Source: Acidobacteriota bacterium (GTDB lineage Bacteria; Acidobacteriota; Thermoanaerobaculia; UBA5066). Taken from it: 64,000 nt of DNA. Positions 21,821 through 24,693 of this stretch are shown piece by piece; position 1 is the stretch's first letter, and each line of letters opens with the position of its first letter. The stretch lies in the NCBI GenBank assembly GCA_029781975.1, contig JAKOVQ010000053.1, forward strand, positions 62,001 through 126,000. Direction: 5' to 3'. A program made the position numbers and the translations under genes. The notes below the pieces were generated by a model. That model was not told the DNA's origin. It searched no databases and was given only the letters and a program-made list of their open reading frames with translations.

Positions 21821-22801
21821 GTGGGCCGGTTCGCCCTCTACCACGACCCGCTCGTCCTCGAGCACGGGACGGGGCGCTTCCATCCCGAGGGACCGGGGCG
21901 GGTCGCGGCCTGCGTGGCCCGGCTCTCGGGGGAAGGGTTCCTCCCGGAGGCGCCCCCGTCCCCGTCGCGGACCCGCCGCGCGATCGAGAGGGTCCACGCC
22001 GCGCCCTACGTCGAGAGGCTCCGGGAAGCGTCGGAGGCGGCGCCCGACGGCTTCCCCCGGGACCAGGCCTTCACGTTCTTCGACTCGCCCGACAACGCGG
22101 CCTCCGCGGCGACCTTCGACGCCGCCGTCCGGGCGGTGGGGCTCTCCCTGGCCGCCTCCGACGCCGTCCTGGCGGGGGAGGCGCGGAGCGCGTTCGTCGC
22201 GGTGCGCCCCCCCGGGCACCACGCGCGGGCGCGGTCGGCCATGGGCTTCTGCTTCCTCAACGCGGTCGCCGTCGTCGCGCGCGACCTGGTCGAGGAGCGG
22301 GGCGTCTCGCGCGTCCTCGTCGCCGACTTCGACGTCCACCACGGGAACGGCACGCAGGAGACCTTCTGGGAGGACGGGCGGGTCGCCTTCCTCTCGGTTC
22401 ACCGGTACCCGTTCTACCCGGGGACCGGAGGGGCGGACGAGACGGGGGCCGGGCGCGGCGCCGGCCTCACGAGGAACGTCCCCCTCCCGGCCGGGTCGGA
22501 CGACGCGTCGTACGCGGGCGGCTTCGTCGCCGCCCTCGAGGAGCTGGCCGACCGCTTCAGGCCCGAGGTCGTCCTCGTCAGCGCCGGATTCGACGCCCAC
22601 GTCAGGGACCCGCTCGGGGGGATGGCCGTGACCGCCGAGGGGTACCACGCGATGGTGACGGCCCTCCGATCGGTGGCCGGCGCCCACGCCGACGGACGCC
22701 TCGTCGCCCTCCTGGAGGGGGGGTACGACCACCAGGGAACCGCCGAGGGGGCCCTGACCCTCGCCCGGGTCCTGGCGGACGGGGGCGAAACGACTCATTG
22801 A
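21821..22801 (+). CDS. class II-like histone deacetylase family hydrolase
   Basis: This 326-aa zinc amidohydrolase has all arginase/deacetylase-fold signatures: HPEGPGR near residue 21, the charge-relay PGHHAR (H133, H134), zinc ligands D171 and H173 (DFDVHHGNGT) and D258 (SAGFDAH), and the C-terminal LEGGYD tyrosine. Bacterial members include acetylpolyamine amidohydrolases, acetoin-utilisation AcuC and protein lysine deacetylases. The GFCFLNAVAV and HRYPFYPGTG segments are closest to the class II/HdaH type, but the acyl substrate is unknown. GTG start at 21821. Its stop codon overlaps the -35 of the next gene's promoter. Confidence 0.93.
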   Translation: MGRFALYHDPLVLEHGTGRFHPEGPGRVAACVARLSGEGFLPEAPPSPSRTRRAIERVHAAPYVERLREASEAAPDGFPRDQAFTFFDSPDNAASAATFDAAVRAVGLSLAASDAVLAGEARSAFVAVRPPGHHARARSAMGFCFLNAVAVVARDLVEERGVSRVLVADFDVHHGNGTQETFWEDGRVAFLSVHRYPFYPGTGGADETGAGRGAGLTRNVPLPAGSDDASYAGGFVAALEELADRFRPEVVLVSAGFDAHVRDPLGGMAVTAEGYHAMVTALRSVAGAHADGRLVALLEGGYDHQGTAEGALTLARVLADGGETTH

Positions 22802-22827
22802 CGGCCGTTTGGGGGCAGTCCTAGAAT
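22798..22827 (+). promoter_or_regulatory. sigma-70-type promoter of the repeat surface protein
   Basis: TTGACG at 22798-22803 and TAGAAT at 22822-22827 are separated by 18 nt and are the best -35/-10 pair I found. They imply a 5' untranslated region of about 90 nt before ATG 22925. The -35 begins in the preceding gene's stop region. Confidence 0.65.
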
Positions 22828-22924
22828 CTCTCGTCAAAGACAGCGCCCTCGAGTTTCCGGAGCCGGACCGACACGAGTCGTCACCCGAGAACCTGAGGCC
22901 GCGTGGATCGACGGAGGAAGACCG

Positions 22925-24616
22925 ATGAAGCTCAAGGCTGTAGTCCTCCCGGTGATGGTGGCGGTCGTGGGCCTTTCTTCCGCTCCGGTGGCCGCCCAGT
23001 GCCCGACGGATGGGTGCCCGGCCCAGACGATCGGGACCATCGAGGCTCCCGCCGAGGGCGCGCTCGTCTCCGGATACGTCCGCGTCGCGGGCTTCGCGCT
23101 GGACGGGAACCTCGTCTCGAACGTTGACCTCTACATCGACGGGACGGACGAGGCGAACCGCGTGACGCCGGCGGGAGGGGCGAACATCAACCTCCCGCGC
23201 CCCGACGTCACCCAGGCCTTCCCGAACTACGCGGGAACGCCGGGGAAGGACCCCGGGTTCCAGATGTCCTTCAAGGCGGCCAACTACGCGAACGGGTCGC
23301 ACCGCCTCTACGTCAGGATCACCGACGTCACCGGCTGCTGCTACTTCCTCGAGCCGCGGACGGTGCGGATCGACAACTCCCGGAACCAGGCGCCGTTCGG
23401 CCAGCTCGACTTCCCGCAGGCGGACTCGTCCGTGAACAGCAACGGGGTCCTTCAGGTGGCGGGCTGGGCCCTCGACGACAAGGCCGTCGACCACGTCGAC
23501 GTCTTCATCGACGGCCTGATCGAGCGGCAGGCGGTCCTCGGCGTGAGCCGGCCCGACGTCGCCGGCTACTTCCCGAACGTCCCCGAGGCGATCAACTCCG
23601 GCTTCGTCATCTTCATCGACTCGACCCGGCTCACCAACGGAGTCCACACGGTGACGGTGAAGGTCACCGACAACCAGGGGCAGCAGGGCCTCCTCGGGAC
23701 CCGCCGCTTCCAGGTCTTCAACAACGCCCCGAACCTCCCGCCGTTCGGCGTGGTCGAGTACCCCCTCACCCAGGCCACCTGGTTCGGGAACTGCCTCTCC
23801 TTCCAGCCGGGCCTCCCCTCCGGGAGCCCGGGTGAGATCCGCGACCCCCGCTACCTGATGTTCGTGAACGGGTGGGCGCTCGACACGTCGGTCTACCAGG
23901 AGCGCGGCGGCGTCTCGCACGTCTTCCTCGAGGTCGACGGCGTCGTCATCAAGGACACGCGCGGCGCGTACGGGACCCTCGGCTGCCGGCGGGAGTTCAA
24001 CCTCGGGAACGCCCTCGTCGACTGCTACGGCTTCTACCGCCCCGACGTCGAGCAGCTCTACCCCGGCTTCCCGCAGTCCACCTACCCCGGCTTCAGCTTC
24101 GCGGTCGACGTCGGCCTCCTCGTCACCGAGAAGGGCTTCAAGGAAGGGAACCACATCCTCCAGGTCAAGGCGGTCGACAAGGAGGACAACCAGACCCTCC
24201 TGAAGGAGCTCCCGGTCACGTTCGAGTGCGCGACCGGCCAGTACGACCCGCCGCCCCTCGGCTACGTCGACGACCCGACCAACTACAAGTTCATCAACGG
24301 CATCTACCCGGTGATCGGGTGGGCCCTGGACCTCGACACGGTCATGCGCGTCCGGGTCCTGGTCGACGGCGTCCCGCAGGTCGACGCGGTCCGCGGCGTC
24401 GACTACGCCGAGTACGGGCTCCCGAGCCCGGACGTCGAGGCGGTCTACCCGGCCTACCCGCAGAAGGCGAACGCCCGGTGGCGCTTCTACCTCGACACGA
24501 CCAAGCTCGCCAACAGCGAGCACGACCTGATGGTCGAGGTCTGGGACATGCGCTACCACAAGCTCTCGGCGGGCGTCCGCCGGTTCATCGTCAACAACAA
24601 CACGCTGGTCCGGTAA
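22925..24616 (+). CDS. secreted protein of four Ig-like GWALD/RPDV repeats
   Basis: This 563-aa exported protein has a signal peptide (KLK, hydrophobic core, cleavage after APVAAQ near residue 25). Four modules follow, at about 35-150, 155-270, 275-435 and 440-560. Each has a GWALD or GFALD strand, a V-D-(V/L)-x-I/V-DG strand, an (R/S)PDV turn, an aromatic-P-x-x-P stretch and an L-x-N-(G/S)-x-H strand. The third module is expanded with extra cysteines. Similar RPDV...YP repeats occur in large secreted actinobacterial wall proteins. No enzyme domain or anchor is visible, so it is probably a structural or binding protein. It has a strong ggaggaag site, its own promoter and a terminator. Confidence 0.85.
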   Translation: MKLKAVVLPVMVAVVGLSSAPVAAQCPTDGCPAQTIGTIEAPAEGALVSGYVRVAGFALDGNLVSNVDLYIDGTDEANRVTPAGGANINLPRPDVTQAFPNYAGTPGKDPGFQMSFKAANYANGSHRLYVRITDVTGCCYFLEPRTVRIDNSRNQAPFGQLDFPQADSSVNSNGVLQVAGWALDDKAVDHVDVFIDGLIERQAVLGVSRPDVAGYFPNVPEAINSGFVIFIDSTRLTNGVHTVTVKVTDNQGQQGLLGTRRFQVFNNAPNLPPFGVVEYPLTQATWFGNCLSFQPGLPSGSPGEIRDPRYLMFVNGWALDTSVYQERGGVSHVFLEVDGVVIKDTRGAYGTLGCRREFNLGNALVDCYGFYRPDVEQLYPGFPQSTYPGFSFAVDVGLLVTEKGFKEGNHILQVKAVDKEDNQTLLKELPVTFECATGQYDPPPLGYVDDPTNYKFINGIYPVIGWALDLDTVMRVRVLVDGVPQVDAVRGVDYAEYGLPSPDVEAVYPAYPQKANARWRFYLDTTKLANSEHDLMVEVWDMRYHKLSAGVRRFIVNNNTLVR

Positions 24617-24661
24617 GCCCGGCCCCGCGGGGCGTCCCGCGGCCGCTCCCTGAACCCGCCC

Positions 24662-24693
24662 CCGGCCCCGCTCGCGCGGGGCCGGTCGTTTTT
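24662..24693 (+). terminator. intrinsic terminator of the repeat-protein gene
   Basis: A perfect 10-bp stem (CCGGCCCCGC / GCGGGGCCGG) with the loop TCGC is followed by TCG and five Ts. It is the only textbook rho-independent terminator seen in the window. It lies just before the stop of the convergent helicase gene. Confidence 0.88.

Follow-up and report, generated by a model that had tools for sequence, protein, structure and literature searches.

A probably exported, single-copy protein of four Big_7-type immunoglobulin-like modules in one class of Acidobacteriota

The window analysed here is a stretch of 64,000 nucleotides from an Acidobacteriota bacterium (assembly GCA_029781975.1, contig JAKOVQ010000053.1), the source genome being 5.37 Mb in 54 contigs. 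Between positions 22798 and 24693 of the window lies a single gene, framed by its own promoter and an intrinsic terminator, for a protein of 563 amino acids (aa) that carries four immunoglobulin (Ig)-like modules and is probably exported. The features of the locus are the following:

22798..22827, + strand: sigma-70-type promoter TTGACG-18-TAGAAT (sequence and promoter scan)
22913..22920, + strand: ribosome-binding site GGAGGAAG (read from the sequence)
22925..24616, + strand: gene for a 563-aa Ig-like protein of four modules, probably exported (open reading frame, Pfam, AlphaFold, ortholog search)
22925..22996, + strand: Sec-type signal peptide, residues 1-24, V-A-A before Q25 (by eye)
23027..23383, + strand: module 1, GFALD...RPDV (module alignment, tree)
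23387..23725, + strand: module 2, GWALD...RPDV, with the top mean identity among orthologs and an AlphaFold pLDDT of 93.1 (alignment, Pfam, AlphaFold)
23735..24235, + strand: module 3, expanded, with Cys290, Cys354, Cys367 and Cys435 (module alignment)
24254..24601, + strand: module 4, GWALD...SPDV (module alignment, tree)
24662..24693, + strand: intrinsic terminator, a stem of 10 G-C pairs closed by a 4-base loop and continued by the T-run TCGTTTTTCT, stem-loop at 24662-24685 (terminator scan)
21821..22801, + strand: upstream histone-deacetylase (HDAC)-like gene (PF00850), a syntenic neighbour judged to lie outside the unit (Pfam)

An initial sequence-only reading of this stretch had described a stand-alone gene with strong signals at both ends, and that layout is confirmed. 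The promoter is present at 22798-22827 and is the strongest in the sense that it is the sole site in the whole 64 kb with at least 10 matches to the 12-base consensus, one further promoter-like site with 9/12 being listed in the window scan. Its -35 box and the stop codon of the HDAC-like gene before it overlap. The ggaggaag site reported earlier was found as GGAGGAAG before the ATG at 22925, from which the gene runs to a stop codon ending at 24616; GGAGG-like sites 5' of the chosen ortholog starts were noticed by eye and are uncounted. The terminator is present as described, with its 10 G-C pairs, loop of 4 and T-run TCGTTTTTCT. The statement that it is the only T-run terminator is correct in a strict sense (a strong stem with five consecutive T directly after it), but nine other, weaker terminator-like sites are listed in the window, their totals no higher than in shuffled sequences. 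Because the promoter lies at the stop codon of the HDAC-like gene and a terminator follows the four-module gene, a shared operon of the two is judged unlikely. Export of the protein is probable from a signal peptide judged by eye, to which the hydrophobic N-termini of orthologs lend only non-independent support, the script that chose start codons having favoured such an N-terminus. A lipoprotein was considered and rejected, as A-A-Q precedes C26 with no lipobox and a Cys occupies that column in 5/41 orthologs (the window protein and those of 40 further loci).

The four modules are genuine repeats, with pairwise identities of 26.5-35.6% within the window protein and BLASTP E-values from 0.002 to 2.5e-20, and the chain stops four residues past the last of them. 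Their consensus signature is GWALD...DG...RPDV...P...GF...H. The earlier count of four GWALD...RPDV modules was therefore right in number but not in motif throughout, as GFALD stands in module 1 and SPDV in module 4. The signature W and R are both present in 41/41 orthologs in module 2 and in 40/41 each in module 3; the W position of module 1 is occupied by F in 19/41 orthologs and by W in 14/41, and the R position of module 4 by R in 20/41 and by S in 20/41. The expansion of one repeat with cysteines was likewise confirmed, module 3 being enlarged and containing the pair C354/C367, of which both residues are found in 31/41 orthologs and neither in the other 10. Being kept or lost jointly, the pair fits a putative disulfide.

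In Pfam the protein matches Big_7 (PF17957) over three stretches, scoring 68.6 bits (E 7.6e-19) where the cut-off is 24.1, and Big_13 with 34.6 bits against a cut-off of 27. No family other than Ig-like ones exceeds its cut-off in the 563-aa protein, DUF6941 reaching 22.2 versus 27. The repeat module is an Ig-like domain already named Big_7, and hence no new module type. Fold and domain are already known; what is new is a conserved single-copy ortholog restricted to one class among the genomes sampled. Of a named Pfam domain with a known ligand, the outcome that the sequence-only reading had set against itself, the name was found but no general Big_7 ligand. The best match to the Big_7 profile uses 86 residues of the window protein for 67 profile positions, which may be read as an extra RPDV segment, and for several modules recovered with the module profile built in this work the Big_7 match is absent or below cut-off.

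A sequence search of the PDB returned no relative (a single row, E 0.2), and the best E in a profile search was 0.028. Structure prediction, which had been proposed as a check, was run with AlphaFold and yielded four beta-sandwiches, a short helix marking the RPDV segment of every one. The model of the whole protein (14 sequences) has a pLDDT of 78.3 and a pTM of 0.59; module 2 modelled alone (window 23387-23731, 33 module sequences) is predicted confidently, with a pLDDT of 93.1, and has in this model the Ig-like beta-sandwich fold of Big_7. When module 2 was compared with known structures in VIA-align, the top rows fell within 1 Z of one another, namely CelAly B1 (9kvu, 12.3), a CbhA module (3pdd, 12.1), a mannanase (6tn6, 12.1), a glucodextranase (1ug9, 12.0) and the C-terminal domains of sulfite oxidase/dehydrogenase (11.8 and below); the HPI S-layer domain 8cka_A has Z 10.7 (2.2 A, 91 residues). 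The sulfite oxidase/dehydrogenase domains align over 96-103 residues with 18-23% identity. The structural neighbours are Ig-like modules from secreted enzymes, adhesins and one S-layer protein, and such matches of a predicted module show an Ig-like fold but no ligand.

The gene is inherited in single copy within the class of the source genome, which is probably Thermoanaerobaculia and is meant by class in all counts here. A search of 60 relatives at E <= 0.001 gave some match in 48, several of these being lone modules of other proteins. With profile A1, built from 40 rows of the ortholog set (L069 left out), an ortholog was found at E <= 1e-40 in 97/148 class genomes, as a single match in 96 of the 97; in the other, G269, two contigs each hold part of the gene. 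The match covers all four modules in 66 of the positive genomes (including G269, and G008 with an interrupted gene), starts near module 2 in 29, which represent a three-module form, and covers the second half only in 2. Phylum-wide, 396 genomes gave 32 matches, every one inside the class. At the same threshold, 3/14 genomes of the source genome's own family have no match, and the ortholog is found in none of the listed genomes of genus g17 (14) and family f71 (15), an absence which suggests loss in whole clades.

In 26/40 loci the upstream side carries an HDAC-like gene, a presumably flippase-like membrane protein or both, and lon is also present in 18 of these 26; some of the 14 other loci are short contigs. 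In family f7 the neighbourhood is different in 9/9 loci, with a RarA-like ATPase and a threonine-dehydratase-like enzyme as read from the sequences. One class member with a genome of 2.0 Mb (G019, locus L070) has a three-module ortholog beside an HDAC-like gene at a locus of 37% G+C, against 60-74% in the other loci. An origin in a mobile element was rejected, as tblastn gave no match in plasmid and phage collections and the neighbourhood is common to 26/40 loci. Two further module sequences also had no match among plasmids.

The order of the modules appears to be old. In a FastTree tree of 140 modules from 36/41 orthologs (near-duplicates, L069 and modules of fewer than 85 residues dropped), the modules sort exactly by position, into groups of 32, 36, 36 and 36 members. 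Support is 0.98 for the module 1 group, 0.682 for module 3 and 0.865 for module 4, whereas none is given for module 2, which lies at the root. With this moderate support, the modules would have diverged earlier than the sampled families, and from the four exact positional groups each module seems to have kept a separate role. Mean pairwise identities for modules 1-4 are 0.431, 0.452, 0.383 and 0.375 (38/41 orthologs). The whole-module net charge is negative in 140/140 modules, and the orthologs have a median isoelectric point (pI) of 4.64 (n=41).

The promoter recurs with the gene. A site with at least 10/12 matches stands 5' of the ortholog in 11/11 loci of the source genome's family, at positions -84 to -146 and across 7 genera (L034-L036 share one genus; L040, L041 and L043 another), and a scan of 161,659 bases on both strands gave just 2 further sites of this quality. 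MAFFT could not align the upstream DNA across the family, and since the promoters could not be lined up base by base the recurrence rests on the site scan. In 162,807 bases of the source genome (the window, L149-L152 and L120-L122) the second and only other site of at least 10/12 lies directly before an rpsL-rpsG-fusA-tuf cluster, the names of which were assigned by eye. Of 4000 random 300-base stretches taken as background, 1.0% contained a site of at least 10 and 3.2% a site of at least 9. The recurrence in all family loci makes high expression likelier.

The sequence-only interpretation is supported in part: its idea that the repeats are a transferable module has held up. A profile of 29 modules at E <= 1e-8 matched 16/149 phylum genomes, 8 of those outside the class, and the module was found in 34 open reading frames at 31 loci, of which 27/34 were scanned with Pfam. 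Related modules accompany subtilase S8, matrixin M10 and M23 peptidases, a metallo-beta-lactamase-fold protein, NHL repeats and Ig arrays (He_PIG, I-set), as well as two methyltransferases and four PMT_2-like membrane proteins, the latter all below the Pfam cut-off; in 8/27 of the scanned frames nothing apart from Big_7 was detected. The PMT_2-like proteins (L118, L119 and L122 in the source genome, L123 in genome G002) each carry one terminal RPDV-type module, which would lie outside the inner membrane. One methyltransferase of the source genome (L117:2187-3290, equal to L150:9687-10790) carries a single RPDV-type module at its C-terminus, which shares 41% identity with module 2; an FHA-domain gene and genes of type VI secretion (PF05936, PF14331) lie at a distance of some 2.5 to 7 kb. 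Outside the class, genome G117 has 18 module matches (L131-L136, L147), including a subtilase and an M10 peptidase. A protein of 1650 aa at L137:4631-9580 combines an M23 peptidase with PKD and BACON domains and has two RPDV-type modules near its C-terminus, close in kind to the actinobacterial wall enzymes mentioned in the sequence-only reading, though within Acidobacteriota. A profile search of one Rhodococcus megaplasmid, a single replicon, gave no candidate module.

Taken together, the gene is read here, with a confidence somewhat above even, as encoding a strongly transcribed, single-gene, exported and non-enzymatic Ig rod, most likely an abundant protein with a structural or adhesive part in the cell envelope or the extracellular matrix. 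Removal of the signal peptide would leave a mature chain of about 59 kDa, which would fold into four Big_7-type beta-sandwiches joined by short conserved linkers; that these extend as a rod is suggested by a full model of modest pTM. As no anchor is visible, it is proposed that the protein may stay in place through its modules, which would contact glycans or other proteins. A number of observations weigh against this interpretation. Neither the sequence nor Pfam reveals an anchor or sorting signal in the 563-aa protein, and the Foldseek matches of the whole model have low TM-scores of 0.13-0.30. The presence of the module on methyltransferases with no obvious signal peptide is ill-suited to a purely extracellular role. 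No match at threshold was obtained in 51/148 class genomes, whole clades among them, and the gene is therefore not indispensable in the class. With regard to expression, the promoter background consists mainly of coding DNA with more G+C than intergenic sequence, which puts its frequencies on the low side and makes the comparison too favourable, and outside the family a site of at least 9 is found in 18/30 loci and none in 12/30. Codon usage is mildly ribosome-like, the gene ranking third by likelihood ratio and fifth by codon adaptation index among 21 window genes picked by script and by hand, with tiny differences, and codon bias was set aside as weak proof of abundance.

Other roles have been considered for the same architecture. 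The modules may bind a glycan, either a polysaccharide of the cell's own envelope or an environmental polymer, so that a free-standing carbohydrate-binding protein would scavenge or cross-link glycans in the manner of a multivalent lectin. In VIA-align the first row for module 2 is a Big_7 domain for which binding to alginate gels has been reported (PMC13235733); in the source genome, membrane proteins that weakly match PMT_2 glycosyltransferases terminate in related modules, and elsewhere in the phylum such modules occur on secreted hydrolases. However, the same report ascribes alginate binding to a positively charged flat face (PMC13235733), whereas the net charge is negative in every module of the tree; moreover, the CbhA, mannanase, glucodextranase and sulfite oxidase rows within 1 Z of B1 point to a fold and no ligand, and the methyltransferase and peptidase modules point to no single sugar. 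This role is plausible though unlikely. The Ig-array S-layer HPI of Deinococcus offers a different parallel, that of a self-assembling S-layer or coat subunit, with which the good structural match of 8cka_A to module 2, the strong promoter across the family and the acidic pI would agree. For HPI homologs, nevertheless, a lipoprotein signal with an N-terminal Cys is predicted (PMC10120038), but here a Q stands before the first Cys; neither the sequence nor Pfam shows an SLH domain, a transmembrane segment or any other anchor, the protein has three or four Ig domains only, and matches to an Ig-like fold are very common. A subunit of this kind is considered distinctly improbable.

Still less probable is a periplasmic partner of an envelope enzyme, whether chaperone-like or inhibitory, with modules serving protein-protein contacts. 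A free-standing copy might dock where like modules are fused to peptidases, the lactamase-fold enzyme or PMT_2-like proteins, and no surface-sorting signal was seen, but no conserved candidate partner gene was recognised nearby, the recognised neighbours in 26/40 loci being the HDAC-like gene, the membrane protein described above or both, often with lon beyond. The favoured reading as a structural or adhesive Ig rod also admits a bolder form, quite unlikely as it stands, in which the protein would be a major, as yet unnamed coat or matrix protein of the class Thermoanaerobaculia: an anchorless rod of three or four Ig domains with vertical inheritance, fixed module order and a near-consensus promoter, whose RPDV module has been lent to glycan-building and protein-cutting envelope enzymes, all recognising one envelope component.

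Among the titles listed in a literature search on Big_7 or Ig-like domains together with Acidobacteria, S-layers or metaproteomics, none concerned this protein. The 13 named relatives found are all metagenome-assembled genomes, and the surfaces of these cells are accordingly little known. A single-copy, probably strongly expressed gene confined to one class among 396 phylum genomes would serve as a convenient marker and give a starting point for learning the composition of their envelope or matrix, and as the RPDV-type Big_7 module is attached to envelope enzymes of several kinds across the phylum, knowing its ligand would explain multiple proteins.

Among known systems, the ice adhesin 4p99, which is the first Foldseek row for the full-length model with a TM-score of 0.14, and SiiE (2yn5) are alike in their tandem Ig-like modules, whereas giant adhesins are far longer and have ligand-binding tips and anchors. 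The Ca2+-stabilised adhesin repeat (Ca_tandemer, NF033510) scores 16.5 bits versus an NCBIfam cut-off of 50. A fibrillar adhesin consists of a stalk, an adhesive domain and a cell anchor, but here the chain ends four residues past module 4 with no further Pfam domain above cut-off. CelAly B1 (PDB 9KVU) resembles module 2 with Z 12.3, a root-mean-square deviation of 1.9 A over 91 residues and 20% identity, tied with other Ig-like rows. B1 is described as a Big_7 domain that binds alginate gels through a positive flat face with Lys40, Arg49 and Arg75, and as an accessory domain of an enzyme (PMC13235733), in contrast to the free-standing, net acidic window protein. HPI homologs mostly have seven consecutive domains and all have a predicted lipoprotein signal (PMC10120038), neither of which is seen in the window protein. 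What the HPI S-layer protein of Deinococcus radiodurans shares with it is an arrangement of consecutive Ig-like domains in one exported chain, the export of the window protein being probable and its fold predicted.
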